From positions 682,001 through 746,000 of the forward strand of contig NZ_CP133189.1 of assembly GCF_030913655.1 (NCBI RefSeq): a stretch of DNA of 64,000 nt. Direction: 5' to 3'. Of the stretch, positions 3,638-8,466 are shown one piece after another. Numbering within the stretch: the first letter of the stretch is position 1; each line of letters starts with the position of its first letter. The position numbers and the translations under genes are program-made. The stretch comes from Clostridium sp. MB40-C1. Its GTDB lineage: Bacteria > Bacillota > Clostridia > Clostridiales > Clostridiaceae. The notes under the pieces were generated by a model. The model was not told the origin of the DNA, did no database searches, and saw only the letters and a list, made by a program, of their open reading frames with translations.

Positions 3638-4057
3638 ATGGAATATAGTTATAAAGGTTATTATAAAAATTATTATGATGAACACAAAGAGCAATACAGG
3701 GGATATATGAAAAAATATTTAAATAAAAATAAAACAGCAATAATTTATAAGATTTTGAGTGAAAAAGATGAGATGATGTACATAGGTTCTACAGATTCAA
3801 AATTTCGTTTAAATTACCACAAAAATGGTTATGGAAAATTAGATAAGTCAAAAGGTGAAAAATTATTATACTCAAAAATAAACGGTATAACTAGAGAGGA
3901 ATTGTATTTTATAGAAAGCTATTTAATAGAAAAATATAACCCTCCTAAAAATTTATCTATTGTAAAAACAGAACAATTTGGAATTAATGAATGTAGAAAA
4001 GTAGAACTAATTAAAATTGCTGATGATCTACAGTTTAATTTTTTTAAATTGAATTAA
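3638..4057 (+). CDS. GIY-YIG endonuclease (homing-type)
   Basis: The product is 139 residues. The GIY-YIG core spans about residues 35-105: Tyr37 in 'IIYKIL', Tyr48-Ile-Gly-Ser-Thr, catalytic Arg57 in 'KFRLN', Glu93 in 'YFIESYLIEKYN', and Asn105. These are the expected catalytic residues. The N-terminus has a Tyr/Lys-rich repeat of the kind found in free-standing phage GIY-YIG nucleases. No good ribosome-binding site precedes the ATG. A strong one lies 45 bases upstream before a seven-codon peptide, behind a hairpin (ATATACTT/AAGTATAT), so translation may be weak or coupled. It lies directly upstream of a structured non-coding stretch. It is probably a selfish nuclease. Confidence 0.8.
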   Translation: MEYSYKGYYKNYYDEHKEQYRGYMKKYLNKNKTAIIYKILSEKDEMMYIGSTDSKFRLNYHKNGYGKLDKSKGEKLLYSKINGITREELYFIESYLIEKYNPPKNLSIVKTEQFGINECRKVELIKIADDLQFNFFKLN

Positions 4058-4139
4058 ATGTATAATATAACAATTATATTATAACAAACTATAAAAATAA
4101 AGTCAATAATAAAATAAAATTTAAAGTAAAAGGGGATTT

Positions 4140-4186
4140 GTGATTATGACAAATTTCCATGCGAACCAAGTTGCGAGAACATATTA
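4140..4186 (+). other. Possible 13-codon micro-ORF (remnant or leader)
   Basis: ATG at 4146 opens MTNFHANQVARTY and stops at TAG. AAAGGGG upstream could serve as a Shine-Dalgarno. A bulged hairpin covers the start. It may be the stump of a gene displaced by the neighbouring endonuclease, or chance. Confidence is low. Confidence 0.2.
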
Positions 4187-4265
4187 GCAAAAGATTGGTA
4201 TAATTTAGATAAAATCATTTAAGAGTAATCTTAGATGTGTTTATATATAAATTTTTCTATAATAA

Positions 4266-4725
4266 AATTCAATTACTCATTGATTGAATTTCTATTGTAT
4301 AACATAATATAAGTTTTGTTGTTTTCTTTCGAGTAGCCAATCTCGACTCTCCTAATAGTACACCTAAAAAAGTACAAAGCAAAAAACAACTAGAGCAATC
4401 CAATTCATAGGTATAAGGATTTTGAGAAAGTTGTCCTGCATCATAGGAGAAACCCTATGGTGTTGCTCCTATGATTATAAAGTTTTAATAGAAGTATATA
4501 TTATACTTCAAAATTTATAAAACAATCTCCTTTTATATAGGGATAACTGAACGGAAGGTTATCCCTGTTTTTTAATATAAAAGAGATTGAAATGTATATT
4601 TCTATTAGAACTTTATATTAGTTCTAAACAATACCGTTAATTTTTCAAAGTTCATTAATTAATAAATGAACGCTACACTTCCAAAAAGGTTGTAAGGATT
4701 AATTTTCTTATAACCTTCTACTATT
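4266..4725 (+). ncRNA. Candidate large structured non-coding RNA in the prophage
   Basis: The stretch 4058-4757 has no gene. From 4266 it is a run of consecutive inverted repeats: 4266-4273/4283-4290; 4318-4325/4383-4390 enclosing TCGAG (4329)/CTCGA (4342); AATCC (4397)/GGATT (4417); a 10-bp stem 4440-4449/4466-4475; 4475-4481/4514-4520 enclosing an 8-bp stem 4491-4498/4502-4509; a long stem near 4523-4537/4577-4590 enclosing the 9-bp stem 4539-4547/4558-4566; then GTTCATT/AATGAAC and an 11-bp stem AAGGTTGTAAG/CTTATAACCTT near 4687-4720. The strand is inferred from neighbours and the T-run at 4568. Size and phage setting recall the ornate ROOL and GOLLD RNAs, but I cannot match a consensus. 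It could instead be several separate hairpins. Confidence 0.45.
4539..4573 (+). terminator. Strong hairpin with T-run inside the structured region
   Basis: The perfect 9-bp arms AGGGATAAC (4539-4547) and GTTATCCCT (4558-4566) are followed by GTTTTTT, as in an intrinsic terminator. An outer stem (about 4523-4537 with 4577-4590) surrounds it and includes sequence after the T-run. It may therefore be a structural helix rather than, or as well as, a terminator. Confidence 0.6.
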
Positions 4726-4757
4726 TTAAAAATATAAATAAAAAAGGAGAATGATTT

Positions 4758-5114
4758 ATGGAAAAAGACAAAGAAAGAACTTATTTTGATGAAGGACAGA
4801 AAAACATTAATAAAAATTTACTTAAAGCATTAACTAAAATAACAAAAGATAATAATAAACATCTAGAAAAAAATTTAAATATAATGTGGAATTTAGGTTA
4901 TCAAGAAGCTTTATTGCTAAAGGACAAAGAACAAGAAGAATTTATGGACAAGTTACAATTTATAGATTTTGACTTTATAATTCAAAAAATAGATTTTATT
5001 AAAAATTTGAATGTAGCACTTCAAAAGGATGATTATAGAGATATTGATGTCAAAACAACAATAATTAAAAAGATTATTGAATTATACAATTATATTTATG
5101 ATGAGATGAAATAA
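4758..5114 (+). CDS. Unknown helical phage protein
   Basis: The product is 118 residues, starting at ATG behind AAAAAGGAG. It is highly charged, Lys/Asp/Asn-rich and almost certainly all-helical. No recognised domain, signal or catalytic motif is present. It stands between the structured non-coding region and the four-paralogue array, and the spacing suggests it is the first gene of that array's transcript. The function is unknown. Confidence 0.5.
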   Translation: MEKDKERTYFDEGQKNINKNLLKALTKITKDNNKHLEKNLNIMWNLGYQEALLLKDKEQEEFMDKLQFIDFDFIIQKIDFIKNLNVALQKDDYRDIDVKTTIIKKIIELYNYIYDEMK

Positions 5115-5152
5115 AAGTTAGTTTTAAATCAAAAAAGAAAGGAATGATATAT

Positions 5153-5488
5153 ATGAAATTTGTCACAGACAATAAAAAAGTTAAGGATATGGAAAATACA
5201 ATTAGTGACATTAACAATGTTAAAAACAATTGTAGTAGGGGTGGATTACAAGATTTTATACATATTGTGAATACATTTAATAATATGTGTAATGATGATG
5301 TCAAGTATTTTTGTAGCAAAAAGGGTTACATATATGATAATGAAAATCATAGAACTTTTGGATACAATGATGTAGTTTCTTATGGAATAGAAGGAGATAA
5401 ATTAATATTATATGTATTAATAAACGAATTAGAGAAAATTGAATATGATAAAACTGGACAATGGAGATATGTGAAAATCAATAAGTAA
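5153..5488 (+). CDS. Tandem paralogue family B, copy 1
   Basis: 111 residues. ATG 5153 is preferred over ATG 5144, because GAAAGGA would abut the earlier codon and all the paralogues begin MKF. The family pattern is an N-terminal helix with 'NI.KIKN.C', then 'LQDFI..VN.FN.M.(N/D)D', then 'Y.C...G.IYI', and 'V.YGIE.DKLILY' before a variable tail. This copy ends 'GQWRYVKINK', like copy 3. No membrane segment or catalytic motif is visible. The four copies lie head to tail, each with nearly the same GAAAGGRTTGRTAT leader. The function is unknown. Confidence 0.6.
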   Translation: MKFVTDNKKVKDMENTISDINNVKNNCSRGGLQDFIHIVNTFNNMCNDDVKYFCSKKGYIYDNENHRTFGYNDVVSYGIEGDKLILYVLINELEKIEYDKTGQWRYVKINK

Positions 5489-5525
5489 AATATTTTAAAT
5501 AATTAGATAAGAAAGGATTGATATT

Positions 5526-5876
5526 ATGAAATTTAGTATAGATAATAAAAAGGCTAAAAATATGGAAGATGTAATTAATAATATTAATAAGATTAAAAAC
5601 AATTGTACTGAAAATGGAAATTTACAGGATTTTATACATACTGTAAATACTTTTAATGATATGGCTAATGATGACATTACTTATATTTGCAATGAAGAAG
5701 GAAACATATACATAGAAAATCCAAGTCATATTGATAGTTGTGGAGGGCAGTTTTTTTACAATAATGTAGTTTCTTATGGAATAGAAGGAGATAAATTAAT
5801 ATTATATCTACTACAATACAACTTGAGAAAAATAGCACTTACAGTAGATGGCAGATACGAATGTTTACATGATTAA
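5526..5876 (+). CDS. Tandem paralogue family B, copy 2
   Basis: The product is 116 residues, with the same architecture as copy 1: 'NNCTENGNLQDFIHTVN', 'FNDMANDD', 'VVSYGIEGDKLILY'. It carries a small insertion after the 'IYIENPS' strand, and its tail runs 'TVDGRYECLHD'. In the middle it matches copy 4 best ('ENGNL', 'MANDDITY', 'IEKP/IENP'), whereas copies 1 and 3 pair with each other. The single conserved Cys near residue 30 and the 'Y.C' Cys are shared by all four. The function is unknown. Confidence 0.6.
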   Translation: MKFSIDNKKAKNMEDVINNINKIKNNCTENGNLQDFIHTVNTFNDMANDDITYICNEEGNIYIENPSHIDSCGGQFFYNNVVSYGIEGDKLILYLLQYNLRKIALTVDGRYECLHD

Positions 5877-5896
5877 AAAAAGAAAGGATTGGTATT

Positions 5897-6250
5897 ATGA
5901 AATTTAGTATAGATAGTCAAGAGGTTAAGAATATAGAAAATACAGTTAATGATATTAACAGCATAAAAAAGGGTTGCAGTATGGGGAGTTTGCAGGACTT
6001 TATAAACACAGTAAACCAATTTAATGATATGTGTGATGATAATATTATTTATTTTTGTAGTAAAAGAGGTCGCATATACATAGATAACATAGATGACAAT
6101 ATTAATAGCTGTAGAGAATATGGTTTTGACGATATAGTTGCCTATGGAATAGAAGAAGATAAGTTAATAGTATATACACTAATAAATGAATGTCATAAAG
6201 TTGAATATAATACAAATGGAAAATGGCGATATGAGAAAATTAATAAGTAA
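5897..6250 (+). CDS. Tandem paralogue family B, copy 3
   Basis: The product is 117 residues. It aligns end to end with copy 1: 'SLQDFINTVNQFNDMCDDN', 'YFCSKRGRIYID', 'VAYGIEEDKLIVYTLINE', ending 'GKWRYEKINK'. It starts only 20 bases after copy 2 stops, with the same leader. An acidic insertion, 'NIDDNINSC', marks the centre. The function is unknown. Confidence 0.6.
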   Translation: MKFSIDSQEVKNIENTVNDINSIKKGCSMGSLQDFINTVNQFNDMCDDNIIYFCSKRGRIYIDNIDDNINSCREYGFDDIVAYGIEEDKLIVYTLINECHKVEYNTNGKWRYEKINK

Positions 6251-6292
6251 AATTTATTATTTTGAACAATTAAAAAAGAAAGGGTTGATATG

Positions 6293-6649
6293 ATGAAATT
6301 TAATAAATATAGTAGAGAGCTCAAAAATATAGAAAATATGTTTAATAGCGTTAATAAAATTAAAAATGATTGTAGCGAAAATGGAAATTTAGAAGATTTT
6401 ATAAATACTATAAATACTTTTAATAATATGGCGAATGATGATATTACTTATTTTTGTAGTAGAGATGGAAGGGTATATATAGAAAAGCCAGGTAGGTTTG
6501 AGTTTGGCAGAGAACAAATTTCTTATAACAATGTTATTGCCTATGGAATAGAAGAAGATAAATTAGTATTATATACTTCTTATAGCAGTTTAGAAAAAAT
6601 GGTATGTACTATTGATGGAGAATATGAATTCCCTAATAAAAGAAAGTGA
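6293..6649 (+). CDS. Tandem paralogue family B, copy 4
   Basis: 118 residues from ATG 6293; an ATG one codon earlier is also possible. It is most like copy 2, with 'CSENGNLEDFINTIN', 'MANDDITYFC', 'VYIEKP' and a tail 'TIDGEYEFPNKRK'. It is the last of the array. The scaffold gene follows at once, and the GAGG that serves as its ribosome-binding site overlaps this stop region, so array and head genes are probably co-transcribed. Confidence 0.6.
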   Translation: MKFNKYSRELKNIENMFNSVNKIKNDCSENGNLEDFINTINTFNNMANDDITYFCSRDGRVYIEKPGRFEFGREQISYNNVIAYGIEEDKLVLYTSYSSLEKMVCTIDGEYEFPNKRK

Positions 6650-6660
6650 GGTTGAATAGT

Positions 6661-7233
6661 ATGGCATGGAAAGAAAATATTTCACAAGAGGAATATAACA
6701 CAGATATAGAAAGTGTTAAAAGTGAAGCGGTAAAAGGTTTATTTACTCAAGAACAATTAGATACTGAAATTGGAAAGACAAAAGAGTTATTTAAGGATTA
6801 TATCTCTAATGAAGATTTTGAAAAGACAAAGAATGATTATGAAACTAAAATATCTGAATTAGGTGGTAAAGAACCAACCGCAGAAGAAAAGAAGATATTA
6901 GAAAAACAAAAGGAATTAGCTGATAAGGAAAAGGAATTACTAGATAAAGAAAATATGTACAACTTATCAGACATGTTAGAGGAAAGAGGATTACCAAAAT
7001 CTTTAGCAGAATATTTAAAGTTTGGTGATAAAGAGGTTAATGAAAAATTAGTTGAAGGATTAACACAAATATTTTCTGATGAAAGATTTAGTAATAGTTT
7101 CAAGGGAGTAGGACACAAGAAAAATGAAGGAATAACTAAAGAACAGTTTAAGAATATGTCTTTAGAAGAGCAATTTAAAATATTTAATACTAATCCAGAA
7201 TTATATAACAAGTTAGTAGTAAGAAAATTATAA
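6661..7233 (+). CDS. Phage capsid scaffold protein (DUF4355/gp6-like)
   Basis: 190 residues. ATG 6661 is chosen over GTG 6646 because GAGGTT at 6648-6653 is the Shine-Dalgarno. The protein is very charged and coiled-coil rich: a long helix near residues 60-95 holds the repeats 'EKKILEKQKELADKEKEL'. A smaller C-terminal domain ends 'EQFKIFNTNPELYNKL', typical of DUF4355-type scaffolds. It lies just before the major capsid gene, the usual place. It would guide procapsid assembly and leave afterwards. A terminator overlaps its stop codon. Confidence 0.75.
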   Translation: MAWKENISQEEYNTDIESVKSEAVKGLFTQEQLDTEIGKTKELFKDYISNEDFEKTKNDYETKISELGGKEPTAEEKKILEKQKELADKEKELLDKENMYNLSDMLEERGLPKSLAEYLKFGDKEVNEKLVEGLTQIFSDERFSNSFKGVGHKKNEGITKEQFKNMSLEEQFKIFNTNPELYNKLVVRKL

Positions 7234-7303: not shown

Positions 7304-8152
7304 ATGACTAAAAGAGCAGATTTATTAATACCAGAATTTATTGCACCACAGATAGGGGATAATTTTGAAATAAACTCTACTACGTTACAAATGTGTGATG
7401 TTGATACATCTTTACAAGGAAATGCAGGAGATGAATTGACTATAGCAAAATACGTGTATGGAAATAGTAAGTGCCAAAAATTAAAAGAAGGAGATACAAT
7501 TGATTATAAAAAGTTAGCAATGGGCAGTTCTAAAATTACATTAGAACAGTATGCGAGTGGTTACAGGATATTTGATAGAGCATTACTTGCAACTTTGGGT
7601 GATCCAATTGGTAAAATGGTACAATTCATAGGTGGAGAAATAACTGACACTTTTGATGAAGATGTAATTGCAGTTGCTAAAACAACACCGCTAAAATTTG
7701 AAGTTAATAATCCTTTGTCTATTACAGAAACAGAAATTAATGAAGCTTTAAATCTATATGGAGATAAACAAAACTATACTGATTTTGAAGGGATAGTGAT
7801 ACATCCTAAATTAAAATCATCATTTTTAAATATGGAGAGTTTTACAAAAACTGATTCTACAATGGCTAAAGATGGAAATGGCGTTATCCAAAATGGAGTA
7901 ATAGGTTATTGGGGTGGAATAATACCAGTTATTTTATCTTCTAAGGGTACATACGATTCTGTAAAACAGCAATGCGAAACTTTTATAATTAAAAAGGGTT
8001 CGTTACTAGCTGTTTATAAAAGAACACCTAACTTTGAAAAAGGTAGGGATATGGATAATAAATCTTGGAAAGTTAACGATGACATGATAGGCGGTATTGG
8101 TCTTATCAATGAAGCAGGAATTGTCCATTTAACAAAAGTTTTTAATAAATAA
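7304..8152 (+). CDS. Phage major capsid protein (HK97-like fold)
   Basis: The product is 282 residues, starting at ATG behind AGCGAGGAAT. Its N-terminal arm, 'LLIPEFIAPQIGD', is followed by the pattern of the Clostridium-type major capsid family: 'GDELTIAKYVYGN', an E-loop-like 'EGDTIDYKKLAMGSSKITLEQY', a P-domain helix with 'DTFDEDVIAVA', and an A-domain strand 'GIVIHPKLKSSFLNM'. Length fits a small HK97-fold capsid without a fused protease. The scaffold gene precedes it, and a terminator follows its stop. No separate head protease is visible. Confidence 0.85.
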   Translation: MTKRADLLIPEFIAPQIGDNFEINSTTLQMCDVDTSLQGNAGDELTIAKYVYGNSKCQKLKEGDTIDYKKLAMGSSKITLEQYASGYRIFDRALLATLGDPIGKMVQFIGGEITDTFDEDVIAVAKTTPLKFEVNNPLSITETEINEALNLYGDKQNYTDFEGIVIHPKLKSSFLNMESFTKTDSTMAKDGNGVIQNGVIGYWGGIIPVILSSKGTYDSVKQQCETFIIKKGSLLAVYKRTPNFEKGRDMDNKSWKVNDDMIGGIGLINEAGIVHLTKVFNK

Positions 8153-8214: not shown

Positions 8215-8466
8215 ATGTTAAGTTGTAATGAAGTGAAAAATCTAATGCTTATGAAAGATATTACACAAACTGAAATATGTGAATATTGTGGAGTAAAAAG
8301 ACCTTATATAAGTATGCTTATAAATGGTAAGCAGCCATTTACAGAAGAAATTTATAATAAAATGATTGAATATATAAATTTAAGTATAAAAGACAAAGAA
8401 AAATTTAGAAATGAATTGAAAGAGAAAAAAGAAAAAGAGAAACAATCAAAGCAAAATAAAAAATAA
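8215..8466 (+). CDS. HTH protein inside the structural module
   Basis: The product is 83 residues, starting at ATG behind AGAAGGTGA. Residues 10-45 form an XRE/Cro helix-turn-helix ('ITQTEICEYCGVKRPYISMLINGK'-type pattern). The C-terminal 25 residues are almost all Lys, Glu and Gln. It sits between the capsid gene and the tail-assembly genes, after a terminator, where a regulator is not normally expected. It may control late-gene expression, or bind nucleic acid or the capsid. Two Cys lie in the HTH. Confidence 0.7.
   Translation: MLSCNEVKNLMLMKDITQTEICEYCGVKRPYISMLINGKQPFTEEIYNKMIEYINLSIKDKEKFRNELKEKKEKEKQSKQNKK

Follow-up and report, generated by a model that had tools for sequence, protein, structure and literature searches.

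The interval 4318–4467 on the forward strand of the window (the whole 64 000-nucleotide stretch of Clostridium sp. MB40-C1 DNA analysed here, which is part of a 3.9-Mb contig) is predicted to encode a member of a new family of structured RNAs from clostridial prophages, an assignment that is well supported by comparison of related sequences. That this core, designated module A, is a real conserved RNA is almost certain, and evolution has preserved the family in several viruses that are only distantly related, close to where the structural genes begin. The best reading of its role, which we put forward tentatively and with a mechanism that we infer, is a leader RNA on the late transcript, by which read-through would be controlled.

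The RNA region lies within a prophage, of which a neighbour gene (L069) is presumably yebC. The relevant features of the window are the following.

2–1117, + strand: C-terminal part of a candidate phage RNA polymerase of the YonO family, 1121 aa (phrog_8308 match)
3638–4057, + strand: small GIY-YIG nuclease gene directly 5′ of the RNA (Pfam PF01541)
4280–4308, + strand: promoter-like site TTGATT-17-CATAAT just 5′ of the RNA (consensus scan)
4318–4467, + strand: conserved RNA core (module A), ~150 nt (covariance models R2 and R3, see below, and pair counts)
4475–4757, + strand: module B, a structured leader common to the C. brassicae prophage (88.8% identity over 4475–5152)
4537–4575, + strand: intrinsic-terminator-like hairpin and T run (terminator scan)
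4686–4717, + strand: second terminator-like hairpin, close upstream of the next gene (terminator scan)
4758–5114, + strand: first ORF past the leader, 118 aa, with no convincing family match
6646–7233, + strand: head scaffolding protein (phrog_172, E 9e-11)
7304–8152, + strand: major head protein (phrog_544, E 3.6e-30)

Beyond the scaffold and head genes lie a 1678-aa ORF of tape-measure type and the large terminase. Relatives of the 4758–5114 ORF are present in four of the 206 family genomes, its own genome counted. Four paralogous ORFs of 114–119 aa stand in tandem between the leader and the scaffold gene (5144–6649); the C. brassicae prophage has no equivalent of them. By eye, a fragment of open frame that lacks a start codon was noticed at ~4131–4221, 3′ of the GIY-YIG gene and 5′ of the RNA, possibly the remnant of a gene. 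A preliminary description had placed a structured RNA here, in a prophage and adjoining a GIY-YIG gene; Pfam bears out the nuclease with an E value of 1.2e-4, at 22.7 bits barely above the cut-off of 22.6. Such a Pfam match occurs within 2 kb of the RNA in four of the ten carrier genomes and is thus recurrent, not universal; the GIY-YIG neighbour in G174 scores 22.0, slightly below the cut-off, and an ORF 3′ of the RNA copy in G085 resembles the gene by eye and has no match in Pfam or PHROGs.

The stretch between the GIY-YIG gene and the next ORF (4058–4757) was originally described as gene-free and dense in inverted repeats, and both observations hold: the sole ORF of at least 40 aa is one of 44 aa on the − strand, and the named repeats are present in the sequence. 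As + strand RNA the stretch folds at −172.2 kcal/mol, compared with a mean of −108.8 (s.d. 5.2) for 20 dinucleotide shuffles, none of which folds as well (z −12.1); the excess is weaker on the − strand (z −6.7, again 0/20). In 200-nt windows the + strand excess extends over ~4001–4700 and is absent over the genes on both sides, and the windows 4301–4500 and 4401–4600 fold strongly on the − strand too. Two terminator-like sites are found in 3950–4900 against a shuffle mean of 0.1. Promoter-like sites (nine, shuffle mean 7.4) are not above chance in the same interval, and the one at 4280–4308 is therefore weak. The description of the stretch as one large RNA did not survive the comparison with relatives: it comprises at least two modules, 4318–4467 and 4475–4757, since each has relatives without the other.

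The family was reached through the head protein. In the G016 prophage, found by this route, the stretch 5′ of the scaffold gene aligns with 4304–4430 with a local score of 45, the maximum in 300 shuffles being 39; by itself the score is not decisive, since 40 was reached by unshuffled loci of greater length. Common to both sequences are the P2 loop and blocks further downstream, and six of the 13 pairs in P1 and P2 (helices are listed below) are changed on both sides, with none broken. A covariance model of these two sequences (R2) gave weak but well placed matches in two genomes: in G098 (E 0.06) the match precedes a gene related to the 4758 ORF, and in G101 (E 0.12) it lies directly 5′ of the scaffold gene. 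It was from these sequences that the second domain of module A came to light. An R2-stage match in G112 (E 0.3), which stands before a regulator gene, was set aside.

Model R3, built from four hand-aligned sequences, was searched in the 206 family genomes, of which 35 match at E ≤ 2 and seven strongly (E < 1e-5). Beyond the four seed genomes it recovers copies in G174 (4.4e-14), G166 (6.8e-11) and G085 (2.8e-6; all per-genome E values), as well as a second G098 copy (E 2.8e-6) that was not used in building the model. This second copy (L246, reverse complement of 8249–8366) lies ~0.9 kb past the first and lacks the P2 hairpin and CUCC. Three further genomes, outside the R3 matches at E ≤ 2 in the 206 genomes, were added: G134, where a weak match (E 0.0065 in 235 kb) precedes the scaffold gene; G162, also weak (0.068); and G160, from its similarity to G162. 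Membership of the latter two is a by-eye assignment following the weak G162 match, and they retain only P1, a T-arm-like P2, CUCC and a P4-like hairpin. The family thus totals 11 copies in ten genomes, of which eight copies in seven genomes are strong. Six of the 28 weakly matching genomes were inspected (L230–L234 and L236) and judged to be chance, the least certain being L232, which keeps part of the junction; the family counts leave out the uninspected remainder of the 28.

A set of 291 class genomes, which includes at least 13 from the same family, gave six R3 matches at E ≤ 0.1, namely the window and five at 0.001–0.07; the alignments of three of these five were inspected and judged to be chance, and no convincing new member was found in this set. 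Of two further contigs, L251 carries an RNA copy with the same score as that of G174, and in L252 R3 finds nothing at E 0.1. Searches of phage and plasmid DNA with 4058–4757 returned short matches only, covering at most 14% of the query, which we judge to be chance, as we do the likewise short phage matches of the G101, G174 and G166 copies; the G174 copy matched tRNA T arms. Pattern searches of viral contigs returned, among the matches listed, either unrelated DNA or none, and no relatives of three window proteins were found in viral contigs. In the partial literature library that was searched, no paper was recognised as describing this RNA.

Module A consists of a P1 helix enclosing a hairpin, followed by a junction in which P6 encloses P4 and P5. 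All helices derive from models R2 and R3 and the pair counts.

4318–4325/4383–4390, + strand: P1
4329–4333/4342–4346, + strand: P2
4347–4353, + strand: CUCUCCU, unpaired in the model (motif count)
4358–4361/4372–4375, + strand: P3
4394–4398/4463–4467, + strand: P6
4409–4416, + strand: AGGUAUAA, in the junction (8/11 copies)
4416–4420/4433–4437, + strand: P4
4439–4447/4454–4462, + strand: P5

The two-domain fold P1[P2] + P6[P4,P5] is found, with covariation, in the R3 family, G160 and G162 keeping only P1, P2 and P4 of it. The 10-bp stem at 4440/4466 of the preliminary description does exist in the window, but the pairing that relatives keep there is a different one (P5 and P6). The junction closed by P6 holds UCCAAU, AGGUAUAA, P4 and P5. 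CUCC, which is complementary to Shine–Dalgarno sequences, is present in ten of the 11 copies, and GGTAAGTT occurs just upstream in four. P2 resembles a tRNA T arm in five copies (G174, G101, G166, G160 and G162). Pairing of CUCC with the P4 loop as a pseudoknot was considered and rejected, as it did not rise above shuffled loops.

Covariation in homologues, on which the preliminary description had proposed that the structure be judged, is extensive. In the nine copies aligned by fitting to model R3, 28 of the 34 pairs have both partners changed, and 94.7% of the 263 cells are paired; none of 500 shuffles reaches any of five measures, and slid controls pair at 37–56%. The four hand-aligned sequences give 20 of 34 pairs changed on both sides, with 97.6% of 123 cells paired, figures that lean towards structure because the alignment was fitted to it by hand, with N filler. 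When the helices of all 11 copies are assigned by hand, 297 of 320 pairs are Watson–Crick, 20 are G–U and three are mismatches. The nine-copy alignment contains 19 G–U cells, two A–C and 12 other unpaired cells, and the excess of G–U over A–C points to + strand RNA.

Module B has a separate history. The sole close DNA relative of the region in the 206 family genomes is the prophage of Clostridium brassicae ZC22-4 (G003), which matches 4475–5152 at 88.8% and again from 6638; it has nothing similar to 4058–4474 and no R3 match, which makes module B separable. The inner hairpins of module B show compensated changes by eye between the window and C. brassicae (GGGATAAC/GTTATCCC versus GGGATAGT/ACTATCTC). 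Of the two modules the C. brassicae prophage keeps only B, together with its late genes, and no phrog_8308 match is present anywhere in that genome.

In its 11 assigned copies module A stands before the structural or packaging genes of prophages. On the early side, G016, G160 and G162 have an integrase with few other genes, and the remaining carriers have polymerase genes or genes of a replication type. A large phrog_8308 protein is encoded upstream of the RNA in G101, G098 and G085, and homologues are upstream in G134 and the window, so that a YonO-family polymerase gene lies 0.4–3.2 kb upstream in five of the ten carrier genomes. In one (G174) the phrog_8308 match is only found ~400 kb from the RNA, and in four (G016, G160, G162 and G166) it is absent at E 1e-3. 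At seven further YonO-like loci R3 finds nothing below E 1.

The window polymerase has no name in Pfam, PDB sequences or NCBIfam; PHROGs places it in phrog_8308, a family without an assigned function there (match at G000:C1:679803-682670, E 1.6e-76). Its DFDGD sequence is at residue 638, which is encoded upstream of the window edge. DxDxD is the metal-binding motif of two-barrel RNA polymerases and is invariant in all five aligned homologues. Among 14 control genomes the phrog_8308 model matches only that of Bacillus subtilis, in a protein that we take to be YonO of SPβ. The link between phrog_8308 and the YonO family is drawn from this control, from the motif and from general knowledge of these polymerases.

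A further RNA motif was noticed in relatives, directly 5′ of the ribosome-binding site of the scaffold gene; it is a hairpin with a covarying middle stem, around which GG/AA internal loops are placed in opposite orientation.

L072, 8735–8802: second RNA motif
L073, 7978–8044: second RNA motif
L074, 8321–8386: second RNA motif
L070, L071, L075, L076, L077, L079 and L221: further loci with the second RNA motif

Mostly by eye, it was found in ten of 11 relatives (L070–L079 and G101); it is not in G134, and neither the window nor the C. brassicae prophage yielded it. A simple descriptor gave one extra match, inside the L073 scaffold gene, Rfam had no gathering match in L070–L079, and a model of three close copies (R1) matched strongly only those three in the 206 genomes. 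Several of the relatives L070–L077 and L079 have an integrase that is separated from the structural genes by ~1–3 kb in which convincing ORFs are few or absent; these elements may be satellites or prophages in decay. Long frames did not, on the whole, open up when one stop codon was read as sense.

No Rfam 15 family reaches gathering on the window, and at E values up to 5 only RsaOG (E 1.5) and the ToxT thermometer (E 5), both far below gathering, match in 4050–4780. As far as these searches show, the module A family is thus absent from Rfam 15. The resemblance to ROOL and GOLLD suggested in the preliminary description does not extend to membership: neither these nor HEARO or group I/II introns give a gathering match, and the conserved unit is only ~150 nt. 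ROOL and GOLLD are described, in the accessible part of PMC12286853, as structured non-coding RNAs of phages and prophages with unknown function, many GOLLD members exceeding 800 nt. Module A is likewise structured, non-coding and prophage-encoded, but is much smaller and without an Rfam match.

A closer parallel in position is offered by SPβ. The accessible text of the YonO paper (PMC5467207) states that the late operon of SPβ begins at an unannotated non-coding RNA, and in that text the promoter recognised by YonO is left open. In SPβ (NC_001884; L265 9154–10834) a 1.7-kb gap from yonN to yonK contains DUF3800-VIII (RF03075) above gathering and skipping-rope (RF02924) below it. As with module A, the RNAs of this Firmicutes phage are structured and lie past a YonO-family polymerase gene and ahead of the late genes. 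The differences are the 1.7-kb length of the gap, its other RNA families and the lack of a convincing hit for R3 (best E 0.17 over the 2.5 kb searched); conversely, the skipping-rope and DUF3800 models have no gathering match in the window and no match in L219–L221, L227–L229 or L071.

Module A is probably part of the late transcript. It would form the 5′ part, made once late transcription starts, and in phages with a YonO-type polymerase this transcript would be made by that polymerase. The put RNA of phage HK022, which in lambdoid phages consists of two hairpins and is smaller than module A, is a phage leader RNA that conditions polymerase to pass terminators. By analogy in the proposed mode alone, not by sequence comparison, the folded RNA may act in cis on the transcription complex, which would then pass the terminators that follow (4537–4575 and 4686–4717 in the window); we consider such an action on read-through plausible, at somewhat less than even chances. 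A leader of this kind is favoured by its position, by the SPβ precedent and by the terminators after some copies. Terminator-like hairpins are found within 350 nt 3′ of the RNA in the window, G166, G160 and G162, and by eye in G016; the same scan found none in the first G098 copy, G101, G174, G085 or G134. The reading is weakened by the C. brassicae prophage, in which late genes and module B persist although module A is missing, by the four carriers without phrog_8308, by the distant phrog_8308 match of G174, by the seven YonO-like loci without the RNA and by the SPβ gap, where R3 finds nothing convincing. The joint absence of the RNA and phrog_8308 from C. brassicae counts in favour of the late leader.

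Nearly as likely as a late leader is a discrete trans-acting small RNA, starting at ~4310–4320 and ending at 4575, in which CUCC would pair with Shine–Dalgarno sequences or the domains would bind a protein. The compact fold, the CUCC of ten copies, the promoter-like and terminator-like sites flanking the window RNA, and the two G098 copies with a gene in between all suit such an RNA, as do the sRNA type given by Rfam to both RNAs of the SPβ gap and the operon retained by the C. brassicae sister phage without the RNA. It would, however, have no need for one fixed place, the promoter-like sites are at chance level, and in G174, the first G098 copy, G085 and G134 the next ORF begins ~70–130 nt on with no terminator found.

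It is improbable that module A is instead an attenuator or riboswitch-like cis leader, in which alternative pairings would switch termination. Mutually exclusive strong pairings do exist in the window (P5/P6 versus the 10-bp hairpin at 4440–4475, and the local hairpins of module B versus ~4476–4502 with 4591–4617), and in G160 and G162 P4 is followed by a terminator-like T run, but the 10-bp hairpin was noticed in the window only and no common expression platform was recognised. We give very little weight to a DNA element, in which the inverted repeats would work as double-stranded DNA in a replication origin or at a packaging site; the location between early and packaging genes would be apt for this, whereas the G–U excess and the stronger + strand fold fit RNA. 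A phage tRNA-like RNA recognised by tRNA-handling enzymes is just as remote: the T-arm-like P2 that suggests it is missing from six of the 11 copies, the window's included, ARAGORN finds nothing in 14 loci (the window not among them), and the Rfam searches gave no tRNA, tmRNA or YrlA match at the RNA.

Returning to the late leader, a broader conjecture, which we regard as doubtful, is that in phages with a YonO-type polymerase, or with ancestors that had one, late transcripts would begin with a dedicated folded RNA needed or used by the phage polymerase, with different RNA families in each phage group and module A as the clostridial one. The present analysis adds a structured RNA family that is absent from Rfam 15, with strong covariation and a site before the late phage genes, and the compact size of the family (~150 nt) should ease testing of the questions of the YonO promoter and the RNA at the start site.
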